Part shown: piece by piece, positions 1 to 14,485 of the stretch
Numbering within the stretch: the stretch's first letter is position 1
How the letters are laid out: every line of letters starts with the position of its first letter
Program-made: the position numbers and the translations under genes
The notes under the pieces: model-generated
What the model saw: only the letters and a program-made list of their open reading frames with translations
What the model was told of the DNA's origin: nothing
Databases searched by the model: none
NCBI GenBank assembly: GCA_024510845.1
Contig: JANEMA010000003.1
Coordinates: forward strand, 1-64,000
Direction of reading: 5' to 3'
From: Gammaproteobacteria bacterium
GTDB taxonomy: Bacteria > Pseudomonadota > Gammaproteobacteria > Chromatiales > Chromatiaceae
DNA: 64,000 nt

Positions 1-643
1 CACTGGTTTGTCGGCTTCTCGGAAAGAGCCAGGGCACAGCTGGCCTGTCTGGGGCATCTACTGATGGAAAACCGCAATGGCCTGGTCGTGGATGCCCAGG
101 TCACGCAGGCAACGGGCGCCGATGATCGGGAGGCCGCGGTCGAATATGGTCGAAGCACTCGGCAGCACGCATCGCGTGACGCTGGGTGCGGACAAAAACT
201 ACGACACCAAGGGCTGTGTGGATGTACTGCGTTGTGCCAACGTGACACCGCATGTTGCACGGAACACGAGCAACCGTTCATCGGCCATCGATGGACGCAC
301 CATCCGCCATCCGGGCTGTGCCACCAGCCAACGCTCTCGCAAGCGGATCAGGGAATGCTTCGGCTGGGCCGGGGTCATCGGCGGGATACGCAAGAGCCGC
401 CTTGTGGGACGAAAGAAGCTGGACTTCCCGTTCGTACTGAGCCTGTCCGCCTGCAACCTGGTTCGCCTGCGCAATCCGGGGATGGCGGCATGTCGATGGC
501 CGGGCTCCAAGGGTTTGGTGTGCCTGGAAACAGGCGAATCGGGCCAGATTGGCCAATTTCCGGCCAGAGGGCAGGAGTCACCGTGCTTCATCTGCTGCTG
601 GCTGCCAGAAAGGCCCCTTCAGTCGGGTTATTTTCAACGGCCT
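1..643 (+). mobile_element. Degenerate 3' part of an IS5-type transposase gene plus IS right end (frameshifted, truncated by window start)
   Basis: Frame 1 gives ENRNGLVVDAQVTQATGADDREAAVE; frame 2 gives TLGADKNYDTKGCVDVLRCANVTPHVARNTSNRSSAIDGRTIRHPGCATSQRSRKRIRECFGW, both typical of IS5-family DDE transposases. The frame changes near position 130-170. Confidence 0.75.
481..640. repeat. Copy 1 of ~160-bp direct repeat (IS end)
   Basis: Near-identical by eye to 1621-1777, including an uninterrupted 42-bp identical block (528-569 = 1667-1708); ends in ttattttcaacgg. Confidence 0.85.
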
Positions 644-922
644 GCTAAGCCGGATTCAGCACGCACGCAAAAAAAGGTTCTTCGTCATTTCAAGTGGATT
701 TGAACACGGGACCCGCGGGGCTATCGGTCATGTAGATCATGGTGATGAAGGTCTCATCGTTAGAGAATAGCCACGAAATGAAAAACATCATCGAAATGCT
801 GATTGAGGCAGAAGAAGATCTGTGTGAAGATGCGGGCCGCCTGAACATTGAGCAGGCATACAAGGATGCCTGTCCCGATCGAACCGAATTTTCGATAACA
901 GACAAATCAAGGAGAGAGCGCC

Positions 923-1423
923 ATGGCCGAGATCACCCTGCAGGGCAACCCCATTCACACCAGTGGTGACTTGCCGGCGATCGGCAGTCCCGCCCCCGAT
1001 TTTTCGCTGACGGATGGGGAGCTCAACGACGTGAGTCTGAAAGACTTTGCCGGCAAGAAGAAAGTGCTGAGCATTGTGCCCAGCCTGGATACCGGAGTGT
1101 GTGCCACCTCGACCAAGGTGTTCAACGATCGTCTCGGCGGCCGTGATGATGTGGTGGTGCTGGTCATCTCGGCCGACCTGCCGTTCGCCCAGGCGCGCTT
1201 CTGCTCGGCCGAGGGCACCGACCGGGTGAAGACCCTGTCGATGATGCGCGACAAGCACTTTGCCAGGGACTACGGGGTGCTCATCAGCGACGGCCCGCTG
1301 GCCGGCATCACCGCGCGTGCGGTGATGGTGCTCGACGAGAACGACCGTGTACTGCACGCCCAGCTGGTGCCCGAGATTGCGCAGGAACCCGACTACGACG
1401 CAGCCATCGCCGCTCTGGGTTGA
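923..1423 (+). CDS. tpx: Thiol peroxidase (Tpx-type peroxiredoxin)
   Basis: 166 aa; [31 protein letters not shown]...[22 protein letters not shown]-like aaggagag upstream. Confidence 0.95.
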
Positions 1424-1620
1424 GGTCCCGGCTCGGGTTTGGGGGGATTCCCCCGTTTCTTCCTCCCCGCAACAGTGGAAGATACCGGTTTGAGACAGGA
1501 AGAAGGACAAGCGACACGATGCGAGGCCCGGATATTCGGCAAGATTCCTTGTTCAGCACGGTCAGCCCGGAATCTCGGGTGCCGAAGGACCCTCCGTTGC
1601 GCCCGATACGGGCCATAGTC

Positions 1621-1777
1621 GATGCGGCAATGCTTCGACTGGGCCCCAAGGGTTTGGTATGCCTGTAAACAGGCGAATCGGGCCAGATTGGCCAATTTCC
1701 GGCCAGAGTAGGAGCCACCGTGCTTCATCCACTGCTGGCCGCCAGAAAGGCCCCTTCAGTCGAGTTATTTTCAACGG
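1621..1777. repeat. Copy 2 of ~160-bp direct repeat (solo IS end)
   Basis: Matches 481-640; ends 6-7 bp before the gcvPB ORF start. Confidence 0.85.
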
Positions 1778-1783
1778 TCTCAG

Positions 1784-3256
1784 ATGTCACCGATGCTGAT
1801 ATTTGAACACTCACGCACAGGTCGCCGGGCCTTCGCCCAGGCGCCGGCTGTGACCGGTGCCATGGGCGACATTCCGCCGGCGTTCCTGCGCAAGGATCCT
1901 CCTCTGCTGCCCGAGGTCTCAGAGATGCAGGTGGTGCGCCACTATACTCGGCTGTCACAGAAGAACTTCTCCATTGATACTCACTTCTATCCGCTGGGCT
2001 CATGCACCATGAAGTGCAACCCGCGTGCGTGCAACAGTCTGGCCATGTTGCCGGGTTTCCTCGGCCGCCATCCCCTGGCGCCGGAGAGCCATAGCCAAGG
2101 TTTCATGGCCTGTATGTTCGAATTGCAGGAGATTTTGCGTGAGGTCACCGGCATGACTGCCGTCTCGTTGGTACCGGCAGCTGGTGCCCAGGGTGAATTT
2201 GCGGGAGTGGCCATGATCCGCGCCTACCATGATGCGCAGGGTGACACGGCGCGTAGCGAGATTCTGGTACCCGATGCAGCACACGGCACCAATCCTGCCA
2301 CTGCGGTGATGTGTGGCTACAAGGTGCGCGAGATCCCTACGGATGCCAATGGTGATGTGGGCATCGAGGCCTTGCGTGCAGTCGTCGGTCCGCAGACTGC
2401 GGGCATCATGCTCACCAATCCGTCCACGGTGGGCGTGTTTGAGCGCAACATCGAGCAGATTGCGCGCCTCATTCACGAGGCTGGCGGTCTGCTCTATTAT
2501 GATGGTGCCAACCTCAATGCCATCCTCGGCAAGTGCCGGCCGGGTGACATGGGTTTCGATGTCATCCATATGAACCTGCACAAGACTTTCTCCACCCCGC
2601 ACGGTGGTGGCGGCCCGGGTGCAGGGCCGGTAGGTGTATCCGAGCGACTTCAGCCCTTCCTTCCGGTACCCATGGTGGCGAAGGACGGATATGGCGACTA
2701 TTACTGGCTGACCGAGAAGGAACGCCCGCAGAGCATCGGCAGGATAACGACCTTTGCCGGCAATGCGGGTGTGTTGCTTCGAGCCTGGGTCTATGCTCGT
2801 CTGTTGGGGCGATCCGGACTGATCCGCGTGGCCGAATACGCGACGCTGAATGCCAGTTACATGGCCGCGCGCCTGCGCGAGGCGGGTTTCGAACTGGCCT
2901 ATCCCGAACGCCGCGTCACCCACGAGTTCATCGTTACCCTCAGGCGCCAGGCCAAGGAACTGAAGGTGAATGCCATGGATTTTGCCAAGCGCCTGCTCGA
3001 CCATGGCTATCATGCGCCCACTACCTACTTTCCGCTACTGGTGTCCGAGTGTTTCCTGATCGAACCAACTGAGACCGAGGTTCGTGAGGAGCTCGACGGC
3101 TTCATCGCCGCGATGCAGGCCATCCAGCAGGAGGCCGATACCGAGCCGGATACCGTCAAGGGAGCTCCGCACACCTTGCCGGTACGTCGGCTCGATGACG
3201 TGCGGGCGGCACGCGAGCTGGATCTGAAATGGGTCCCGATGGGGAAGGATGTCTGA
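1784..3256 (+). CDS. gcvPB: Glycine dehydrogenase (decarboxylating) subunit 2
   Basis: 490 aa; [63 protein letters not shown] (PLP-lysine region). Confidence 0.95.
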
Positions 3257-3617
3257 ATACTTCGACAATCGCGGTCTTCTGCGTGCCTGGCGTGCCTTGG
3301 GTTATTCATTGGTCGGGTTGCGTGCGGCCTGGCAACACGAGTCGGCCTTCCGTCAGGAACTGTTTGTCGCGCTGATCGTGGTTCCGCTGGGTTTGTGGCT
3401 GGGTGCAGGCGGGGTAGAAAAGGTGTTGCTCGCAGGTAGTTGGGTTGCCGTGTTGATCGTTGAGCTGCTCAACTCCGCCATCGAGGCAGCGGTCGACTGC
3501 AACGGTTCCGAATGGCATGCGCTGGCCGGACGGGCCAAGGATATGGGGTCGGCCGCTGTGCTGCTGGCCATCGTGCTCGCGATATCGATCTGGGGGCTGA
3601 TCCTGCTGCCGGTTTGA
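3249..3617 (+). CDS. dgkA: Diacylglycerol kinase
   Basis: 122 aa; [21 protein letters not shown] and [14 protein letters not shown] motifs; overlaps the gcvPB end by 8 bp. Confidence 0.9.
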
Positions 3618-3640
3618 AGGGGAATCTCAAAGGGCACGAA

Positions 3641-3666
3641 AAACCCACGACAGTGGTCGTGGGTTC
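3641..3666. terminator. Bidirectional intrinsic-terminator-like hairpin
   Basis: Perfect 10-bp stem aacccacgac-agtg-gtcgtgggtt between the convergent genes dgkA and the SoxK-like gene. Confidence 0.7.
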
Positions 3667-3685
3667 TGATGAAAGCCGGGGTAGA

Positions 3686-3991
3686 TCAGTTGTACAGGTA
3701 ACTGGGGTTGCCGGCATTGGCTTGGGCCTTGGTCTGCTTCACGGCCATCTTGCCCTGGAAATCGGCGGCCTTTGCCATCTTGATGGCGGTGTCCAGCTCG
3801 CCGGTATTGGCCAGTTTCTTGGCCTTCCTGAGCATCTTGGCGGTGTCGCGCCACTCGTTCTTCATCTTGGCGGCCTCCTGGCGTGCAGCCTCGGCGGCGG
3901 CATAGGCCTTGTCGAAATCGGCTTGGGAAGCAGCAAAGCTGGTACCGGCCAGCAACAACATCATAGCGGTGGCAGTGAGGATCTTCATCAT
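3686..3991 (-). CDS. SoxXA-binding protein / SoxK-like small secreted protein
   Basis: 101 aa with signal peptide (MKILTATAMMLLLAGTSFAA); EWRDTAKMLRKAKKLANTGELDTAIKMAKAADFQGKMAVKQTKAQANAGNPSYLYN resembles the SoxXA-binding protein family. Confidence 0.65.
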   Translation of the reverse strand: MMKILTATAMMLLLAGTSFAASQADFDKAYAAAEAARQEAAKMKNEWRDTAKMLRKAKKLANTGELDTAIKMAKAADFQGKMAVKQTKAQANAGNPSYLYN

Positions 3992-4148
3992 CTTCTCCTT
4001 TGCTCCTCTGTCGAGTGTGGTTCGAAGGGTTGGTGGTCACGTCGGCGCCGAAGCGCAAGTTTTGTTTTTCTATCTTCATCGGCAGGTGTCGACCGCATAA
4101 GGTACCATTTTGTTCCATTGTTTTCACCATCCATTGGGAGTCGAATTC

Positions 4149-5081
4149 ATGTCGGCACTGATCTGCGGGTCCATGGCCTACGACACCATCATGGTGTTTC
4201 AGGACCGTTTCAAGAATCACATCCTGCCCGAGCAGGTGCACATCCTCAATGTTTCCTTCCTGGTGTTGGAGATGCGCCGCAACTTCGGTGGATGTGCCGG
4301 CAACATCGCATACAACCTCAAGCTGCTGGGTGGTGAGGGGTTGGCAATGGCTACGGTGGGCGAAGATTTCGCCGCCTACGCGCGCTGGATGGACGAACAG
4401 GATCTGTTGCGTACCGGATTGTGTGAGGTGCCGGGCGAGTTCACCGCCCAAGCCTTCATCACCACCGACCAGGACGACAATCAGATCACAGCCTTCCATC
4501 CTGGTGCAATGAACCATTCCCACCTCAATAAAGTGAGCGATTACTCCGACGTTACCATAGGTATCGTCTCACCAGATGGCCGTCAAGGCATGATCGAGCA
4601 TGCCGAACAGTTCGCCGAGGCCGGTATCCCCTTCATTTTTGATCCGGGTCAGGGCATGCCGATGTTCGATGGTGACGATCTGATGCGCTTTGTCGATCAG
4701 GCGACTTGGCTGGCGTTCAATGACTATGAGGCCCGTCTGATGGAACAGCGCACCGGGTTGTCGATCGAGCGCCTGGCCGAGCGGGTAGAGGCGGTAGTCG
4801 TCACCCTGGGGGGCAAGGGCTCGGTGATCCATACCGGCGGGCGTGTCATTGAGATCCCGCTGGCCGTGGCGCGTCGGGTGGTCGATCCCACCGGTTGTGG
4901 TGATGCCTACAGGGGCGGGCTGCTGTACGGCCTGATGAATGGTCTGGATTGGGAGCTGACCGGTCGTGTCGCCTCGCTGATGGGGGCTATCAAGGTAGAG
5001 TCGCGTGGGCCACAGAACCACGGCTTCGGTGGCGAGGGGTTCGCGGAGCGTTTCCGCGAAAGCTTTGGTTTCGATCTCTGA
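4149..5081 (+). CDS. PfkB-family carbohydrate/nucleoside kinase (adenosine kinase-like)
   Basis: MSALICGSMAYDTIMVFQDRF...NFGGCAGNIAYNLKLLGG...VTLGGKGSVI...VVDPTGCGDAYRGGLLYGL (PfkB signature DPTGCGDAYRGG). Confidence 0.9.
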   Translation: MSALICGSMAYDTIMVFQDRFKNHILPEQVHILNVSFLVLEMRRNFGGCAGNIAYNLKLLGGEGLAMATVGEDFAAYARWMDEQDLLRTGLCEVPGEFTAQAFITTDQDDNQITAFHPGAMNHSHLNKVSDYSDVTIGIVSPDGRQGMIEHAEQFAEAGIPFIFDPGQGMPMFDGDDLMRFVDQATWLAFNDYEARLMEQRTGLSIERLAERVEAVVVTLGGKGSVIHTGGRVIEIPLAVARRVVDPTGCGDAYRGGLLYGLMNGLDWELTGRVASLMGAIKVESRGPQNHGFGGEGFAERFRESFGFDL

Positions 5082-5156
5082 AAGATTCGAGGCCGGGGGT
5101 GTTGTTCCCGCAAGCAGGATCCTCATCCTCTGGTGGAACCGTGATCAGAGCGAGAT

Positions 5157-5390
5157 TCAGGCAGAAGGTCCCCAGTGCATGGTCCGGGTGATACGCTGGG
5201 CCAGTGGTGCGATAGGTTCTCTCTGCGTGCCGATGACTGTCACGGCGTCCCAGGTTGTGGGCAGGATTTCGCCATAGAAACGGGCGATGTGTGCCAGCAG
5301 TGCCCGTATTCTTTGCCGGTCGTTTCGTGTTCGAGCTGGGTCTCGCCGGCAGCTATTAGGAGGCTGCAGTAGAACTCAAGGCAGTTCATG
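5157..5390 (-). pseudogene. Frameshifted remnant of an uncharacterised ORF downstream of the sigma-factor pseudogene
   Basis: Minus-strand reading MNCLEFYCSLLIAAGETQLEHETTG then (shifted frame) NDRQRIRALLAHIARFYGEILPTTWDAVTVIGTQREPIAPLAQRITRTMHWGPSA*; protein-like but needs a frameshift. Confidence 0.3.
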
Positions 5391-5819
5391 TAACTTCTTC
5401 TGCCAGTCGTTCTTCAGCATGTCCGCCATCTGCCGGCATGTGCGAAACAGGCGGGTGAGTACTGTTGGGCTCGAGTCCAGCATTTGGCCGATTTCCTTGC
5501 AACTGAAGCCTCCGATGAGGCTGTAGTAACAAGGGTTCGCGATATTCCGGCGCCAGGCGGGCCAGTGCGCTGGCGTTCGCACAGCCGGGTGTGTTCATTG
5601 TACAACCGTGGCGTAGAGCCAGGCGTGCATGCTTTGCGTGTCGCGTAGCGTCTGCTGCGATCGACAGGTACACAGAAATGTCTTCTGCACTAGGTCGGGA
5701 TTGCACCATGGCCCCAGTGCGTGGCGGTAGAGTTCCGGTATCAAGGTCCCGATCAGTGCGTCGAAATGTTGGCTGAGCTGTTCCTGTGTGATATCAGATT
5801 CGACAGTGTGTCCATTCAT
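5376..5819 (-). pseudogene. Frameshifted ECF-type sigma-70 factor gene
   Basis: MNGHTVESDITQEQLSQHFDALIGTLIPELYRHALGPWCNPDLVQKTFL...(frameshifts)...LARLAPEYREPLLLQ...LIGGFSCKEIGQMLDSSPTVLTRLFRTCRQMADML: sigma region 2 and region 4 HTH-like segments in different frames. Confidence 0.65.
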
Positions 5820-5852
5820 TGCATCTTTTCCCTCCGAGTCTGGTCTGTTCAC

Positions 5853-5879
5853 AAAAAAGAGACCCGCCAGAGGCGGGTC
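5853..5879 (-). terminator. Intrinsic terminator for the minus-strand ECF/DsrE operon
   Basis: 8-bp stem gacccgcc-aga-ggcgggtc (5861-5879) followed on the minus strand by a T-rich tract (plus strand aaaaaaga). Confidence 0.7.
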
Positions 5880-5904
5880 CACGACCTTGGAGGTGAAATG
5901 ATAG

Positions 5905-6384
5905 TCAGGGCTTGATATAGATATAGCCCTGCTGCTGAAGGCGGGCCAGTTCGGCCACGCCACTGTCGACGATGTCGTTCGGCTCGACGCCATAGAGGTC
6001 GCTGTCGGCATCGATCCCGCTGCGGCGCAGGGTGGCACCACAGACCTCGAAGCGGACGCCTTGGTCCTTGAGGATGTCCACCCGGGTGGTCATCTGGCCA
6101 TCGGCGTTGGCACGCTGGAAATGCTTCAGGTGGCCGAGTGCCTCGGGTAGCAGCAGCATGGAGAGACCGTTGCCATGCAGTACCACGCGGATATCCAGGT
6201 GCTCGGGGCTTTCGGCCTCGATGTGATTCTGTACGGTGAGCAGTGCATAGGCTTGGTGTTCCGGGTCGCTGTCGTTGATGTGATAGACCACGCGCAGGGG
6301 GCCGTTGGCGGCACTTGCTGCGTTCAGCGTCAGGAGAAGCAACAGCCAGGGCAGCAGTCGGCAGGGCTTGGACATCGGCATCAC
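5905..6384 (-). CDS. Secreted DsrE-family-like protein
   Basis: 159 aa with signal peptide (CRLLPWLLLLLTLNAASA); LRVVYHINDSD...ALLTVQNHIEAES...LHGNGLSMLL...GVRFEVCGATLRR...VDSGVAELARLQQQGYIYIKP, DsrE-like fold pattern with conserved Cys. Confidence 0.7.
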   Translation of the reverse strand: MMPMSKPCRLLPWLLLLLTLNAASAANGPLRVVYHINDSDPEHQAYALLTVQNHIEAESPEHLDIRVVLHGNGLSMLLLPEALGHLKHFQRANADGQMTTRVDILKDQGVRFEVCGATLRRSGIDADSDLYGVEPNDIVDSGVAELARLQQQGYIYIKP

Positions 6385-7103
6385 ACCCGGATATAGCTCC
6401 AGCCTTCTTTCTGGCGCTTGACTACGTGGCTGACGCCGGAATCGATGATCTCGGCCTCTGGCACGATTTCAACTTCGATGCCCTGCTTGACCTCCAAGCG
6501 CTGGATGGTGTTCTTGCAGGCGACGAAGGTGAGATTCTTGTAGCGTTGGGCCAGATAATGGATGCGCTTCTTGTAGTGGCTGAGTCGCTCGCGCAGGAAG
6601 GCCAAGCCTTCCCCGTTGCTCACGATCTCGACTCGTAGTGGCAGCCCATCGGCTTCGTAGGCGGCCAGCATCTGTTCCACGTCATCCAGCAACTCACCGG
6701 CTGTGGTCTGGTCGTGCGTGGTGAGATGGAAGACGATGCGTGTCTCCTCGCTGTCGACCGGGGCCGGTGCCTGGCCGCGCCCTTCCGGATCGAGCACTAC
6801 CAGTCGGTCCTGTGCCTGTCCTTCGTTGCTTGCCAACCAGCCCCCCAGCAGCCCTACGGCCAGCATCAGCAGGCTGGCGGCCAGCGTCAGCCAACGTCGG
6901 CTGGTTCGTTTGACCTTGCAGCCGGCAAACCCCGGTGGGTTGGCATAGGCCAGCTGGAGCTGGCTCTTCAAGTTGTTGAGTTCGCACACCTCATGTGCCA
7001 GTGCCGAATTCTGCTGAATGGTTTCGAGTACCCGCACGCTTTCCTGCGAGGTCAGTTCGCCGTCCACATAGGCGTTGAGATCGATATCACTGTTCTTGGT
7101 CAT
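6381..7103 (-). CDS. Membrane anti-sigma-factor-like protein with C-terminal DsrE-like domain
   Basis: 240 aa; N-terminal DLNAYVDGELTSQESVRVLETI (anti-sigma-like), TM segment RWLTLAASLLMLAVGLLGGWLAS, C-terminal RIVFHLTTHD...EIVSNGEGLAFL...NLTFVACKNTIQRLEVKQGIEVEIVPEAEIIDSGVSHVVKRQKEGWSYIRV (DsrE-like). Sits directly after an ECF sigma gene. Confidence 0.7.
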   Translation of the reverse strand: MTKNSDIDLNAYVDGELTSQESVRVLETIQQNSALAHEVCELNNLKSQLQLAYANPPGFAGCKVKRTSRRWLTLAASLLMLAVGLLGGWLASNEGQAQDRLVVLDPEGRGQAPAPVDSEETRIVFHLTTHDQTTAGELLDDVEQMLAAYEADGLPLRVEIVSNGEGLAFLRERLSHYKKRIHYLAQRYKNLTFVACKNTIQRLEVKQGIEVEIVPEAEIIDSGVSHVVKRQKEGWSYIRV

Positions 7104-7108
7104 GATGG

Positions 7109-7669
7109 TTATCTTTTGCTGATCGGGACTACGACCCGGTCGTTCGGATGGACCTGGGTGAGCAGTTTGCGCAGGCGCTTCCGGGCGCGTGAGATGCGGC
7201 TCATCACGGTCCCGACCGGGACATCCAGGATCTGCGCGGTGTCGGCATAGCTGAAGCCGGCGAGATCCACCAACGTGATGATCTGGCGATGATCCTCGCT
7301 GAGGGCGATGATCGCCTCACGGGTGTGTTGTATCAGCTGTGAGCGACCCGCGGTTTCCTCCGGGGTTTCCTCGGTGACGGGGTCGGCATCCTGGCCGGTA
7401 TCCTCGCGTTGCCGTCGGAATTGGTCACGGAAAAGATTGGCCATGATCCGGGTTAGCCAGAAGGCCAGGCGTGCCTCGTCGCGTAGGCTGTCGAGCTTGT
7501 CCAGCGCTCGGACTAGGGTTTCCTGGACCAAGTCTTCGGCCATGTGCTGATCGTGCGACCAGGACCAGGCCAGCCGGTACAGGCGTTCGCGCTCGTCACA
7601 GATGGCGCTGCGCAGCCGGCGGGTGCGGCCCAATCGTTCCAGCAGGGAAGGGATATTTTTCTCTTTCAT
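7109..7669 (-). CDS. ECF-type RNA polymerase sigma factor
   Basis: 186 aa; LYRLAWSWSHDQHMAEDLVQETLVRALDKL (region 2) and IIALSEDHRQIITLVDLAGFSYADTAQILDVPVGTVMSRISRARKRLRKLL (region 4). Confidence 0.93.
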   Translation of the reverse strand: MKEKNIPSLLERLGRTRRLRSAICDERERLYRLAWSWSHDQHMAEDLVQETLVRALDKLDSLRDEARLAFWLTRIMANLFRDQFRRQREDTGQDADPVTEETPEETAGRSQLIQHTREAIIALSEDHRQIITLVDLAGFSYADTAQILDVPVGTVMSRISRARKRLRKLLTQVHPNDRVVVPISKR

Positions 7670-7675
7670 GTGCGC

Positions 7676-7704
7676 AAAGACGAGCAGCGGCAGAGTTTAT
7701 TCCC
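7676..7704 (-). promoter_or_regulatory. Putative ECF-sigma-dependent promoter
   Basis: Minus strand GGGAATAAACTCTGCCGCTGCTCGTCTTT: GGAAT, 16-nt spacer, CGTC, resembling ECF -35/-10 elements; sits just upstream of the ECF gene start. Confidence 0.5.
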
Positions 7705-7743
7705 TGTCACCGGGGGCACTCCGGAACAAGCTACACTATCTAC

Positions 7744-8058
7744 ATGCAGGTACTCTACCAGGCAAGTGACGAGATCGGGGCCCAGCTGCTGTGCGATTGG
7801 CTGAGGGCTTCGCACATCTGCGCGACCATACTCAATCGTTATCAATCGGTTTATGCCGGTGAGCTGCTGGCCCTGCAGTTCCCGGTGGTCTGGATCCTGG
7901 AGGACGAAGACTTGTGGTGGGTACGGCCGTTGCCTGGGGAATTCCTTTTGCGTTGCGCAGGTGCCAATTCGGGAACGCCTTGGCGTTGTACTTGTGGTAC
8001 CGAGGTGGAGGTCGGTTTCGACCAGTGTTGGCACTGTAGCCGGAGCCGTTCGTCATGA
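7744..8058 (+). CDS. Small DUF2007-like protein
   Basis: MQVLYQASDEIGAQLLCDWLRASHICATILNRYQSVYAGELLALQFPVVWILEDED...WRCTCGTEVEVGFDQCWHC; C-terminal Cys pairs; stop overlaps the mutY start (ATGA). Confidence 0.6.
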   Translation: MQVLYQASDEIGAQLLCDWLRASHICATILNRYQSVYAGELLALQFPVVWILEDEDLWWVRPLPGEFLLRCAGANSGTPWRCTCGTEVEVGFDQCWHCSRSRSS

Positions 8059-9140
8059 GCGATTTCGTCGCGCGTCTGCTAGCCTGGTTCGATGTGCACG
8101 GCCGTCACGACCTGCCCTGGCAGCGACCGGGCAATCCCTACATGGTATGGGTCTCCGAGATTATGCTGCAACAGACCCAGGTGGCCACGGTGATCCCCTA
8201 TTACCAGCGTTTCATGGTGAGTTTCCCCGACTTGGCCAGCCTTGCCGCGGCATCGGAGGATGCGGTTCTGGCACACTGGTCGGGGTTGGGTTACTACGCG
8301 CGGGCGAGGAATCTGCATCGTGCCGCGCGTCAAGTCGTGGCCGAACACGCAGGTCGCCTGCCTGAAGCCGTCGATGGCTTGCAGTCCCTGCCTGGTATCG
8401 GGCGTTCTACGGCCGGGGCCATTCTGTCGTTGGCACTGGGTCAGCGGCACGCCATTCTCGACGGCAATGTCAAGCGGGTTCTGGCCAGACACCGTGCCGT
8501 CCCTGGCTGGCCGGGGCAGGCAGCTGTGGCACACACACTCTGGGAACTGGCCGAGGCGCACACACCTCATGAACGGGTGGCCGAGTACAACCAGGCGATA
8601 ATGGATCTGGGCGCTACGATTTGCACCCGTGGCCGTCCGGGGTGTGCGTGTTGTCCGCTGGAGGCCGACTGTGTGGCCCGTCGGCTGGGACGTCAGGCTG
8701 ATTTCCCTGGTCGCAGGCCACGTCGCGCTCTGCCACAGCGTGCGGTGCAGATGCTGGTGCTGCGCGACCCCGATGGGAGGATGCTGCTGGAGCGGCGTCC
8801 TGCGGAGGGGATCTGGGGTGGTCTCTGGGGTCTGCCCGAGCTGGCGGCGGATGCCGATTTCCTGGTTTGGTGCCGGGAGCAGGGTCATCGTCCGATCAAA
8901 GCGGTCCGTGTACTGCCGTCACGGCACCACACTTTCAGTCATTTTCAGCTCGAGATCTTGCCGCGTGAAATCCGCCTCGAGAAAGTGGGATGCCGGGTGG
9001 CCGATGGCGATAGACTGCGCTGGTACCATTTCCGTGAGCTGGCGGCGCTGGGGTTGGCAGCGCCGGTTGCCCGCCTGCTGTGCGAGATCGAACAACCAGA
9101 GACAGGGGAAACACCGTGGGTCGAGTTGTCAACTGTGTGA
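8055..9140 (+). CDS. mutY: A/G-specific adenine DNA glycosylase
   Basis: [71 protein letters not shown] (FeS cluster), C-terminal NUDIX-like domain. Confidence 0.97.
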
Positions 9141-9382
9141 AACTCAAGCGCGAGGCCGAGGGCCTCGACCGTCAGTCCTACCCGGGCGAGCTGGGCAAGC
9201 GTATCTTCGATAATGTCTCCAAGCCGGCTTGGCAGGAATGGTTGCGGCACCAGACCATGCTGATCAACGAGTACCGCCTCAGCTCCATCGATCCCAAGGC
9301 ACGCCAGTTCCTGGAGGAGCAGATGGAGAAGTACTTCTTCGGCGAGGGTGCCGATACTCCGCCGGATTTTCGTCCGCAATAA
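9116..9382 (+). CDS. yggX: Fe(2+)-trafficking protein YggX
   Basis: GTG start; [55 protein letters not shown]; overlaps the mutY 3' end. Confidence 0.95.
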
Positions 9383-9599
9383 CAGACTGCCGGTCCGCAG
9401 GGATCCCAGAAATCCTTGCATTCTGAGTTGGTGGCGATTTCTTCCTCGACGTGATCAGCTTGCGTGACAGCGACAGCTTGGCCGAGGATACACGACTGGA
9501 GCGGAACAAGTGATATGGATTCCGCGATGCTGATCAACTTTGGTATCCGGAGCAGCCGATCGGTCCGCATCTATCTGCGGCAGAAATGAGGCCGGTCTG

Positions 9600-11075
9600 T
9601 CAGGGGGAGCGGTCCAGTTCCAGTTCGTCCCACAATGCGTCGATGCGCGCCTTGACCTCATCGCTCATGCTGATGGGGCGCCCCCACTCGCGCTCGGTCT
9701 CACCCGGCCACTTGGTGGTAGCGTCCAGGCCCATCTTTCCACCCAGGCCAGAAACCGGCGAGGCGAAGTCGAGATAGTCGATGGGGGTGTTTTCCACCAA
9801 TAGGGTATCGCGTACCGGGTCCATGCGCGTGGTCATGGCCCAGATGACATCCTTCCAGTCGCGTACGTCCACGTCGTCGTCGGTGACGATCACGAACTTG
9901 GTGTACATGAATTGGCGCAGGAAGGACCAGACACCGAACATCACCCGCTTGGCATGCCCCGGATACTGCTTCTTCATGCTCACTGCCGCCAGGCGGTAGG
10001 AGCAGCCCTCGGGTGGCAGGTAGAAGTCAGTGATCTCAGGAAATTGTTTCTGCAGCAGGGGCACGAAGACCTCGTTCAGCGCCACCCCGAGGATGGCCGG
10101 TTCGTCGGGTGGCCGACCGGTGTAGGTACTGTGGTAGATGGGGTTTTCTCGGTGGGTGATGCGCGAGAGGGTGAAGACCGGGAATTCATCCACTTCGTTG
10201 TAATAGCCGGTGTGATCGCCAAAGGGGCCTTCGGGGGCAGTGTCGCCGGGGTGGATAACACCCTCGAGCACGAATTCGGCGTGCGCCGGCACCTGGAGGT
10301 CGTTGCCGATGCTTTTGGTCACCTCGGTGCGGCTGCCGCGCAGCAGGCCGGCGAAGGCATATTCCGAGAGGCTGTCGGGCACAGGGGTGACCGCACCGAG
10401 GATGGTGGCGGGGTCGGCGCCCAGGGCCACGCTCACCGGGAAGGGCTTGCCGGGGTAGGCCTGCTGCCAGTCGTGGAAGTCCAGGGCGCCCCCGCGGTGT
10501 GTCAGCCAGCGCATGATCACACGGTTGTGGCCTATCACCTGCATGCGGTAGATGCCCAGGTTCTGGCGCAGTTTGTGCGGCCCACGAGTGACCACCAGGC
10601 CCCAGGTAATGAGTGGTCCGGCATCCTCTGGCCAGCAGGTCTGTACCGGGATGCGTCTCAGGTCCACGTCATCACCTTCCAGAATGCTCTTCTGACAGGG
10701 CGCGCTCTTCACCTGCCTGGGGGCCATGTCCAGCACCTTGCGGAACATCGGCAGCTTGTCCCAGGCGTCTTTCATGCCCTTCGGCGGGTCGGGTTCCTTG
10801 AGTGCCGCGAGCAGGCTGCCGACCTTGCGCAGTGCGCCGACCGACTCTTCGCCCATGCCCAAGGCCACCCGCTCCGGGGTGCCGAACAGGTTAGCCAGCA
10901 CCGGGATCTCGTGGCCCTTGGGGTTCTCGAACAGGATGGCGGGTCCACCTGTGCGCAGCACCCGGTCGCAGATCTCGGTCATCTCCAGATGTGGATCGAC
11001 CTCGGTGGTGATGCGTTGCAGCTGACCACGCCGTTCCAGCTCTGTCATGAAGTCGCGCAGGTCGCGGTATTGCAT
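9600..11075 (-). CDS. ubiD: 4-hydroxy-3-polyprenylbenzoate decarboxylase (UbiD)
   Basis: [38 protein letters not shown]...[11 protein letters not shown]; the ORF track's upstream extension is likely spurious. Confidence 0.95.
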
Positions 11076-11079
11076 GGTC

Positions 11080-12381
11080 TCAGGCGGCACTGCCGGCAGG
11101 TTCTTCGGTATCGTGCGTGCGAGGTGGCTCGACTGGCTCCTCGAGCACTGGGCGGTTGACCTGTGGCTGGCCGATGTTGGCCGGTAGTGGGATGAGGTGA
11201 AGTTCCTCACCGTGAGTGAGCGCCTTGCGATAGATCTGCAGTGCCTCGGCCTCCTCGCCCATGTGTTCGAGCAGGCGTGCCAGCTCGCGGTAGGCGTCGA
11301 TGGGGCCGTTGTGTGCCACGCTGGCCTCGAGATAAGCGCGTGCCTTTCCCCAGAGTTGGGCACGCATGCTCAGCCGACTCAAGGTGAGCAGCAGTACCGG
11401 GTCGTCCGGGTGGTCCTTGAGGAATTTCTCCAGGCGCGCGAGCTGCCGACCGGGCTTCGGGCAGTCGAGCAGGCCGTAGATCTCGACCAGGTGCGGGTCC
11501 CAGCTCAGCTTGAGCGCTTCGCGCAACAGGCGTTCGGCCTCTTCGTCACGACCGCGCTCCTGCAGGTGACCGGCATAGTCGCCGGCTAGGCGGGGTTCGT
11601 TGCGGATCGTTTTGGGCACCGTGGTCCAGGAGCGGTCGAGGTCTTTTGGATCCTTGCTCAGAAAGGCGTTCTCCAGCAGTTTGCGATGGGTTTTGATCTC
11701 GAGTGCTCGCAGCTCCCTGGCAGGTATCACTTTTCTACGCTGTAATTCGGGGATCAGCTCGAGCAGGTGTTCCCAGTCGCCCAGTTGTTCGTAGAGGCGG
11801 TGTAGCAGGCGTAACACGTAAGTATGACACGGCGCCATCTGGCGCAGGCGACGCAGGGTGGCCAGCGCCTGTTCGAGTTGCTGGTCGGCCAGTTGCAGTT
11901 CGGCCTGGGTGAGGCTGACAGCCACGTCCGCCGAAGGCATGTGTTCGTGGGCACGGCGGATATAGGCGTCGCGGCGATCGTGTGCGCCCTGCAGCTGGGC
12001 GGCGCGAGCGGCAGCCAGGTAGTTGAGCAGCGGGGTCTCGGATCGGTCGGCATAGCGCACCAGGCGGCGCTCTGCAGCACGCCAGTTGCCCTCGGACATC
12101 TCCAGCAGACCGCGGGTCATGGCCTCCCGAGCCTTGTGCATGCCGCGCTGCTGCTTCCAGGTGCGCAGGTCACGCGGCAGGCGGCGGGTGCGCACTGCCA
12201 GGCGGATCAGGAAGTACAGGCCACCGAATAGGAGCACGATCAGCAGTACCAGCAGGGCCAGGCTCATCTCGATGGTCCAGTGGCCGACCGAGATCAGTAC
12301 ATGGCCGCTGTCGTGGCTGACCACCACACCGACCGCGGCACCGGCCAGCATCACCAGCCAGAACTTGAGCAGGCGGCTCAT
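11080..12381 (-). CDS. hemY: HemY-type TPR membrane protein of the heme cluster
   Basis: Two N-terminal TM segments, TPR-like repeats, adjacent to hemX-hemD-hemC. Confidence 0.9.
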
Positions 12382-13649
12382 GGCCTGCGCTCCGTGGCCG
12401 GTGTTTCGGGCGCGATCGGCCGGCCGAGATCGGTGAGCAGCTTGAGGCGGGCGCGCAGCGCCGCCAGCGAGGCACTGATCTCGGGCAGCGGCGGGCGGAT
12501 CTTCACCCGGTCGAGTTCGCGCACCGCGTCACGCAGGGCGCGGGTGTGCTCGTCGTTCGGATCGAAATAGCTGCTCAGCCAGCGTGTCACGGTATTCAGG
12601 TTGTCGTGGTAGAGCCGTTCGTCACTCCGTACGGCTGCCAGGCGAGCGGCCTCGAGGCGCAGGCGCAGGTTTTCGTACAGAAAGTATTGCTGCTCTGGCG
12701 GGAGCATGGCCAGTACTGGCTGGTCGTTGCGGCGGATGCGCACCGCCTGCTTGAAACCAATCCAGAGGTCGTCGATCAGGGTCTGCCATGTGCGTTGTTC
12801 GCGTGGGGCGCCTGTGGTCTCTGTCCCGGAAGGCTTGCGCGGTTCCCCGTCCCGAGTGACGTGTGCCAAGCGTAGTCGGGGGACCTTCTCAGTCAGTGCC
12901 GCCAGGCGAGCCGAGATACCGTCGATGTCGGCTTGTTCGACGGTGTCGAACGTGGCGATGTCATGCGCAATCTGTTCGCGCACCGGGTTCCAGCCCGGAT
13001 CTCCGGTATCGCGCAGGCGCTGGTCGGCCAACTGCAGAGCGGCGCGCGCGGTACGGGTGTCGCGTGCCAGGTTGAGGCGTTCGTTGGCCAGGTGCAGCAG
13101 GTACTCGGCTTCGGCGACCATCCACTGGGTGCCGGAGGCGCCCACTCGCTTGTGCACGTCGGCCACTGCGGCGCGCAGCTCGGCCTCGCGCTGTTGCATC
13201 TGTTCACGTTCACTGTCGAGGTGCCGGTTCTGTTCGGTGAACTGTTGCCGGGCCTCGGTGATGTGCTGTTCCTGGGCCTCTAGCTTGCGCTGCTGGGCAG
13301 TCAGGCGCTTGGCTTGCTCGGCGACCGCGCGCCGTGCCTCGGTGAGCCGCTGTTCCAGTGCGCGCTGCTGGGCCAGGGTCTGCTCCACGCTGCGGTTCAG
13401 GCGCTCCAGGTCGTCTGCCGCCTGGCGGGTGTGGCGATAGGCGAAACCGATGGCAGCGATCGCCAGTACCAGTGACAGGCCGGCCACGATCAGAGGCAGG
13501 GCCTGACCATTGCGTTTCGCCGGGGCGGTATCTGGCGTCTCGCCGCCGCTCTGACCGTCGGCGGTCACGCTCTCCGCCGGTTCGGGCTCGGGGGTGACGT
13601 CGATCACCACCCCGGGTTTTTCTTCCTTGTCGTCGATCATGGCCTGCAT
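12378..13649 (-). CDS. hemX: HemX-family protein (uroporphyrinogen-III C-methyltransferase-like annotation)
   Basis: N-terminal TM, long coiled coil (QQRALEQRLTEARRAVAEQAKRLTAQQRKLEAQ), C-terminal HemX domain; start set at MQAMIDDKEEK. Confidence 0.9.
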   Translation of the reverse strand: MQAMIDDKEEKPGVVIDVTPEPEPAESVTADGQSGGETPDTAPAKRNGQALPLIVAGLSLVLAIAAIGFAYRHTRQAADDLERLNRSVEQTLAQQRALEQRLTEARRAVAEQAKRLTAQQRKLEAQEQHITEARQQFTEQNRHLDSEREQMQQREAELRAAVADVHKRVGASGTQWMVAEAEYLLHLANERLNLARDTRTARAALQLADQRLRDTGDPGWNPVREQIAHDIATFDTVEQADIDGISARLAALTEKVPRLRLAHVTRDGEPRKPSGTETTGAPREQRTWQTLIDDLWIGFKQAVRIRRNDQPVLAMLPPEQQYFLYENLRLRLEAARLAAVRSDERLYHDNLNTVTRWLSSYFDPNDEHTRALRDAVRELDRVKIRPPLPEISASLAALRARLKLLTDLGRPIAPETPATERRP

Positions 13650-13717
13650 AGTGAATGGAAAGTGGTTTTGCCGAAGCCTAACAAACCCGGTCAACGGCGT
13701 CTTGTCGTCGCCAGGCG

Positions 13718-14485
13718 TCAGGCCAGTTGGCACAGCGCGGCGAGCATGTCGGCATCCATTGCCGAGCGTGCCACGATCACCCGCTCGCAGTCGCGCACGG
13801 CGGCGTGTTCGGCCACCCGTCGGCCGGATGCCACCAGCGGGGTGCGGTGCAGCAGGGGCGTGCCCTCCTCGCCGAGCAGGGTGAACAGGTTGTCGAGGAT
13901 CTGCACGCTGGTCACGGTCACCGCATCGATCAGGCTGTCCCAGTTGCGAATCAGGTTGGCCGGGTTACGTTGCGGGATGCGCCGGCGATAGGCCTCGACG
14001 TATTCCACATGCGCACCACGCACCTCGAGGGTCTCTCGCAGCAGCTCACGCCCGCCGTCGCCGCGCACGATGAAGATGCGCCAGCCGGCGACATCCTGCA
14101 GCGAGGGCAGGGCCAGCAGGCCTTCGCTGTCGAAGCGCGATTCGGGTACCGCGGTGGGATCGAGGCCGACGGCCTCGAGGGCGCGCGCGGTGGCGCGGCC
14201 GACGGCGGCGACGCGCAGGTCCAGCGGGATGTGGTCGGGCATCTGCGGAAAGGCGCAGCGCACCGCGTTGGCGCTGACGAAGACCAGCAGGTCCACGTGC
14301 GCCAGGTCGGCGAGCTGGCGGCGCACCGCGTGCTTGTCGGCGGGGCCCAGGATTTCGAGCACGGGAAAGGTCACCGGACGCCCGCGAGCTGCGGCCACCT
14401 GTTCGGCGAACTCGGTGGCCTGTTCGGCAGGGCGGGTGACCAGTACGCTCAGTCCGCCCAGGTCGCAGGGGGCAGTGTCACTCAT
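13718..14485 (-). CDS. hemD: Uroporphyrinogen-III synthase
   Basis: [21 protein letters not shown]...[12 protein letters not shown]...[15 protein letters not shown]; 4-bp overlap with hemC. Confidence 0.93.

Follow-up and report, generated by a model that had tools for sequence, protein, structure and literature searches.

A candidate transmembrane ECF sigma/anti-sigma switch with a DsrE sensor domain for the control of sulfur oxidation genes in Gammaproteobacteria

We describe a gene trio in which an ECF sigma factor is encoded together with an anti-sigma/transmembrane/DsrE fusion protein and a secreted DsrE protein. The reading that we favour, with a probability of roughly 70%, is that this trio forms a transmembrane sigma/anti-sigma switch controlling dissimilatory thiosulfate and sulfur oxidation. 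A wider proposal, put forward tentatively and with somewhat less than even confidence, is that there is a widespread class of such sigma switches, which read sulfane sulfur directly in the periplasm through persulfidation of a DsrE cysteine, use a co-regulated secreted DsrE protein as a sulfur relay and are the principal means by which many sulfur-oxidizing Gammaproteobacteria turn on thiosulfate oxidation.

Results

Layout of the trio

The window, that is the whole stretch of 64,000 nucleotides analysed here, carries the three genes on its minus strand in the order 7109-7669, 6381-7103 and 5905-6384, the latter two sharing 4 bp. The first gene encodes a small protein of 186 aa with sigma2 and sigma4 domains alone (PF04542, 4.9e-14; PF08281, 2e-16; both above cut-off), as is characteristic of ECF sigma factors, and it also matches the TIGR02937 superfamily above its cut-off. 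The product of the second gene (240 aa) is assigned as a fusion of an anti-sigma domain, a single transmembrane (TM) helix and a periplasmic DsrE domain on the basis of NF052375, AlphaFold and Foldseek. The third gene encodes a secreted standalone DsrE protein (PF02635, 1.5e-12) with a signal-peptide-like N-terminal segment, its likely start being the ATG at 6381 or 6375. An intrinsic terminator on the same strand, with a 9-bp stem and a T tract, lies 3' of the trio at 5860-5880. The original prediction of three packed minus-strand reading frames with a 4-bp overlap of the last two, an ECF sigma factor as gene 1, a signal-peptide-bearing DsrE-like protein as gene 3 and a closing hairpin was borne out throughout, including all coordinates. 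A search of positions 1-14000 against Rfam found no RNA, and scans for sigma-70 promoters 5' of the trio gave no convincing match.

Domains, fold and conserved residues of the fusion protein

In the fusion protein, the anti-sigma domain (ASD) covers residues ~1-57, the TM helix residues ~71-90 and the DsrE domain residues ~121-239. The N-terminus of the window protein matches NCBIfam NF052375 weakly (residues 9-57, E=5e-4, below the curated cut-off). When 21 members of the fusion family were searched with Pfam, zf-HC2 was found in 13 (best 3.5e-6), DsrE in 6 and RseA_N in 2; these zf-HC2/RseA-like matches, combined with the location beside a cognate sigma gene, mark the protein as a candidate class I anti-sigma factor (ASDI). 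The HxxxCxxC motif of the zinc-binding anti-sigma (ZAS) type was present in none of 84 fusions, and such absence is common, concerning about 44% of ASDIs (PMC7406223). An excess of Lys and Arg residues N-terminal to the TM helix was observed in 81 of the 84 fusions, which predicts an N-in/C-out topology with the DsrE domain in the periplasm.

Modelling with AlphaFold on an alignment of the 21 sequences gave a DsrE fold at residues ~121-239 with a pLDDT of ~92. With this model as the query, the top Foldseek match was MTH1491 (1L1S, COG1416; E=4.8e-10, TM 0.89), the lower matches being other DsrE-family structures down to DsrEFH, and an HMM search agreed on an MTH1491-like DsrE domain (profile-sequence match 2.8e-20). 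Cys196 and Trp235 are invariant (84/84 each) and His126 is present in 81/84 fusions. Cys196 aligns with the cysteine of MTH1491, so that the conserved cysteine of the COG1416 domain is retained, and a matching cysteine occurs in 64/65 standalone DsrE proteins. Judging by its position, where a strand ends and a helix follows, Cys196 would be the topological equivalent of Cys78 of Allochromatium vinosum DsrE, which carries persulfide sulfur (PMC3397948). An anti-sigma-like N-terminus devoid of the zinc motif, one TM helix and a DsrE fold in the C-terminal part had all been anticipated from the window sequence and are upheld by these analyses. The segment 'FVACKNT' had likewise been rightly singled out as DsrE-like, but its cysteine, the key invariant residue Cys196, had been given too little weight.

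Linkage and distribution of the module

Fusion genes were surveyed in 55 relatives and in a sample of 369 genomes of the class, and subsequent retrieval of the loci yielded the 84 full-length fusions. Carriers in the class sample amounted to 66 genomes from about 40 families. At no fewer than 74 of the 84 loci, the sigma gene is co-oriented with the fusion gene and lies directly 5' of it, the two usually sharing 4 bp; the remaining ten include losses at contig ends and over-extended reading frames. Most fusions have a standalone DsrE gene either adjacent or divergent, and some lack an adjacent one. It is found directly 3' of the fusion, as in the window, at ~22 loci (type A), and divergently, beyond the sigma gene, at about 33-34 loci (type B). 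The divergent DsrE gene of type B is mostly followed by a gene for a Porin_O_P-type porin (34 loci, e.g. L115 7639-9498; Pfam 2.2e-12). The porin was modelled as a beta-barrel with OprP/OprO as the nearest solved structures, and it may let sulfur anions such as thiosulfate enter. The linkage expected by the original prediction is thereby confirmed in dozens of loci, and a chance neighbourhood is ruled out by this survey. The fusion appears to be nearly confined to Gammaproteobacteria: a sample of 399 genomes of the phylum contained the window's own fusion and two further full-length ones, both of the same class. In a close relative (G006, L045 7807-8510) the fusion is split into two overlapping frames by a frameshift or a sequencing error.

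A predicted promoter motif shared by the sigma genes

Comparison of 73 regions upstream of sigma genes revealed a top word pair in 31 sequences, compared with at most 4 in shuffled sequences. The resulting bipartite motif, GGAATA-N15/16-CGTC, occurs 5' of 45/74 sigma orthologues (mean of 0.08 for letter-permuted motifs) and 5' of 17/34 of the divergent type B DsrE genes or DsrE-porin operons (0.02 for permuted motifs). Its sole exact occurrence in the window (0.09 expected) is the predicted ECF promoter GGAATAAACTCTGCCGCTGCTCGTCT at 7678-7703 on the minus strand, and mismatch-tolerant scans of the window gave no convincing site beyond it. Since this site lies 8-9 nt before the ATG of the sigma gene, the message would be leaderless or nearly so. 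Judged from the sequences, it is a candidate for the autoregulated bipartite promoter of an ECF sigma factor, and we predict that the sigma factor drives its own operon from it.

The predicted regulon comprises sox and sulfur transport genes

A pattern search of the window's own genome placed motif sites 5' of the sigma gene, soxB, soxX, a YeeE/TsuA-like transporter gene and an unlinked DsrE paralogue. The site of soxB (TIGR04486, 715 bits) is 150 bp upstream of the gene; soxX, the family of which was assigned by its orthologue, is followed by soxY- and soxZ-like reading frames. The unlinked secreted DsrE (C72; L058 7261-7686), whose gene is flanked by mutL and an N-acetylmuramoyl-alanine amidase gene, is the protein of this genome most closely related to the sensor domain (40% identity). 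The remaining matches, several of them intragenic, look like chance, the reversed pattern giving 4 matches.

Eight relatives were scanned with a stricter pattern, for which a reversed-motif control gave 0-1 matches per genome. Of the 27 sites, ~24 precede sigma, soxB, soxX, SoxXA-binding protein, yeeE or dsrE genes, as named by sequence recognition and by family matches for representatives. As a side observation, the start of a YeeE-like gene and its promoter occur twice in genome G001 (L193 / L198), 592 bp apart, which may reflect a join made during assembly or a stretch that was duplicated in part.

As an independent test, regions of ~10 kb around soxB were compared between 30 genomes with and 30 without the fusion. 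The motif was present in 12/30 regions of the former and 1/30 of the latter (p=0.001), permuted motifs averaging 0.7-0.9 regions, and 15 of the 17 sites precede soxB, soxX or a transporter gene. By ranks the difference was modest (Mann-Whitney p=0.003), and 18 of the 30 fusion genomes had no exact site in the soxB region. With sites 5' of sox genes that are tied to the presence of the regulator, the sigma factor is, on motif evidence, a predicted regulator of a Sox regulon. In the window, a candidate gene for a SoxAX-binding protein (SAXB/SoxK) is located 1.9 kb from the trio at 3686-3991 on the minus strand (NF052674, E=1.5e-16, below the curated cut-off); the region upstream of this gene contains no sigma-type site, while that of its homologue in congener L191 does.

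Co-occurrence in the class sample points to the same function. SoxB was found in 65/66 fusion genomes compared to 85/303 others and DsrA in 52/66 compared to 65/303, these being raw counts that ignore kinship. The sole fusion genome without SoxB (G088) has DsrA. The predicted regulon (soxB, soxXYZ, YeeE/SoxT-like and dsrE genes) and the co-occurrence with SoxB lend independent support to the earlier proposal that the system is sulfur-responsive.

Discussion

Proposed mechanism and alternatives

The computations support an ECF sigma factor co-encoded with a membrane anti-sigma factor, the C-terminal COG1416/MTH1491-like DsrE domain of which would be periplasmic. By motif conservation, the sigma factor is predicted to transcribe its own operon, soxB, soxXYZ, and genes for the YeeE/SoxT-like transporter and periplasmic DsrE proteins. 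When reduced sulfur is absent, the N-terminal ~60 residues of the anti-sigma factor would hold the sigma factor at the membrane; such binding, foreseen by the original prediction, would agree with the anti-sigma-like N-terminus, the 4-bp overlap with the sigma gene and the predicted N-in/C-out topology. Processing of thiosulfate or sulfide in the periplasm would then deposit sulfane sulfur on Cys196 of the sensor, possibly brought there by the secreted DsrE protein or by Sox carriers. The resulting persulfide, or a mixed di- or trisulfide, might alter the oligomeric or partner state of the sensor, and the sigma factor could be set free by a conformational change or by regulated proteolysis. 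Newly made DsrE may act as a carrier, an amplifier or a feedback sink. The trigger is probably sulfane sulfur on the cysteine of the periplasmic DsrE domain, which is the simplest reading of the fold, the invariance of Cys196 and the regulon taken together.

The sensor domain could instead serve as a protein-interaction module to which the secreted DsrE protein binds as a co-repressor or ligand, the sulfur loading of the latter being what is read. DsrE-fold proteins form hetero-oligomers (DsrEFH, 2hy5), and most fusions have a standalone DsrE gene beside or divergent from them under the same promoter. Pure docking would, however, have no need for a cysteine that the sensor keeps in all 84 fusions, and some fusions lack an adjacent DsrE gene, so that we regard this alternative as rather unlikely.

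It is also conceivable, but in our view quite improbable, that the same sulfur-oxidation genes are controlled by a stress sensor in which Cys196 responds to thiol redox or to a thiol poison (an oxidant, a heavy metal or arsenite). A single invariant cysteine in an oxidizing compartment would suit such a role, and near the operon there is a reading frame (923-1423) that we take, from its sequence, to encode a thiol-peroxidase-like protein. In Thioalkalivibrio, furthermore, several DsrE/F-like genes changed their expression under arsenite (PMC6620896). Nonetheless, the predicted targets serve thiosulfate oxidation and sulfur transport, not the response to oxidative stress, and the sensor domain has a sulfur-handling fold. 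A general envelope-stress system of the RpoE/RseA kind, with a DsrE-fold domain that has lost its sulfur chemistry, would account for the RseA-like architecture (cytoplasmic ASD, one TM helix, periplasmic domain) and the RseA_N matches in 2/21 members, but it is very improbable given that the fusion is almost confined to SoxB-positive genomes and its cysteine is invariant, and we rejected it because no envelope-stress genes were recognised among the predicted targets.

Comparison with known systems

With ECF/class I anti-sigma pairs such as RpoE-RseA and the non-zinc ASDIs (PMC7406223), the favoured sigma switch shares a sigma gene with an overlapping anti-sigma gene and an autoregulated promoter, as well as a short helical N-terminal domain, one TM helix and a periplasmic output domain. 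It differs from RpoE-RseA-type pairs in that the periplasmic domain belongs to the DsrE/COG1416 family and that the predicted targets are sox genes. RpoE1/RpoE4 of Sinorhizobium meliloti (ECF26) is an ECF sigma/anti-sigma system that responds to sulfite and induces the sulfur-oxidation enzyme SorT (PMC3511301); it thus resembles the present pair in having a sulfur compound as the signal and a sulfur-oxidation target, whereas its signal is sulfite, its anti-sigma factor is of the COG5662 type without DsrE, and it is alphaproteobacterial (PMC3511301).

Reported regulators of sox genes include the ArsR-type repressors SoxR and sHdrR together with the YeeE-like signal transducer SoxT1B (PMC10451225, PMC12423496, PMC11582611), a CsoR-type regulator in Thermus, and sigma54 two-component systems (PMC10318464, PMC12194929). 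Sulfane-sulfur-responsive sox control with a YeeE-like protein in the circuit is common to SoxR/sHdrR-SoxT1B and our proposal. SoxR and sHdrR, however, are cytoplasmic repressors that need the sulfur signal to pass through the membrane, whereas the sensor proposed here would be periplasmic and the sigma factor activating. The sigma54 system TspS/TspR, as cited in PMC12194929, is similar in its sensor-driven sox activation and differs in being a two-component system of unrelated proteins. MTH1491 (1L1S) and DsrEFH/TusD have the fold and the conserved cysteine of the sensor domain, but the function of MTH1491 is unknown and DsrEFH/TusD are soluble cytoplasmic carriers that are not fused to anti-sigma factors, unlike the sensor described here.

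A search of mainly freely available papers retrieved no description of an anti-sigma/DsrE fusion or of an ECF sigma factor for sox genes. The group may be listed in the main ECF re-classification paper, without a described function. What is new here is a sensor and a target set for a known type of ECF/anti-sigma pair and a promoter motif common to the sigma genes. According to PMC11582611, little is understood of the way in which sulfur oxidizers perceive reduced sulfur beyond the cytoplasm. If our proposal is true, the sensor sits in the periplasm, the compartment of the Sox reactions, as opposed to the cytoplasmic SoxR-type repressors, and periplasmic COG1416 DsrE proteins and the Porin_O/P-type porin with the same promoter would gain a function. 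The proposal is directly testable, as it names a sensor residue (Cys196), a promoter motif and a regulon in a large bacterial group.

Decay beside the trio

In congeners L034, L039 and L040 the trio is followed by an intact second ECF sigma gene and a DUF3379 anti-sigma gene (PF11859, 7e-59 in L034). In the window this pair (5160-5780) is degraded while the trio is intact. The second sigma gene has become a pseudogene at 5379-5780 on the minus strand, with an internal stop and deletions (tblastn, 51% identity to the second sigma factor of L034, 4.6e-41), and two fragments (aa 1-30 and 190-238 of 256) are left of the DUF3379 anti-sigma factor at 5160-5389 on the same strand. This loss shows that the locus can decay, which we count against the reading of the trio as a sigma switch. 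The genome of the window measures 1.87 Mb, compared with 2.5-3.5 Mb in congeners, and the intact trio has thus been kept during an apparent reduction.
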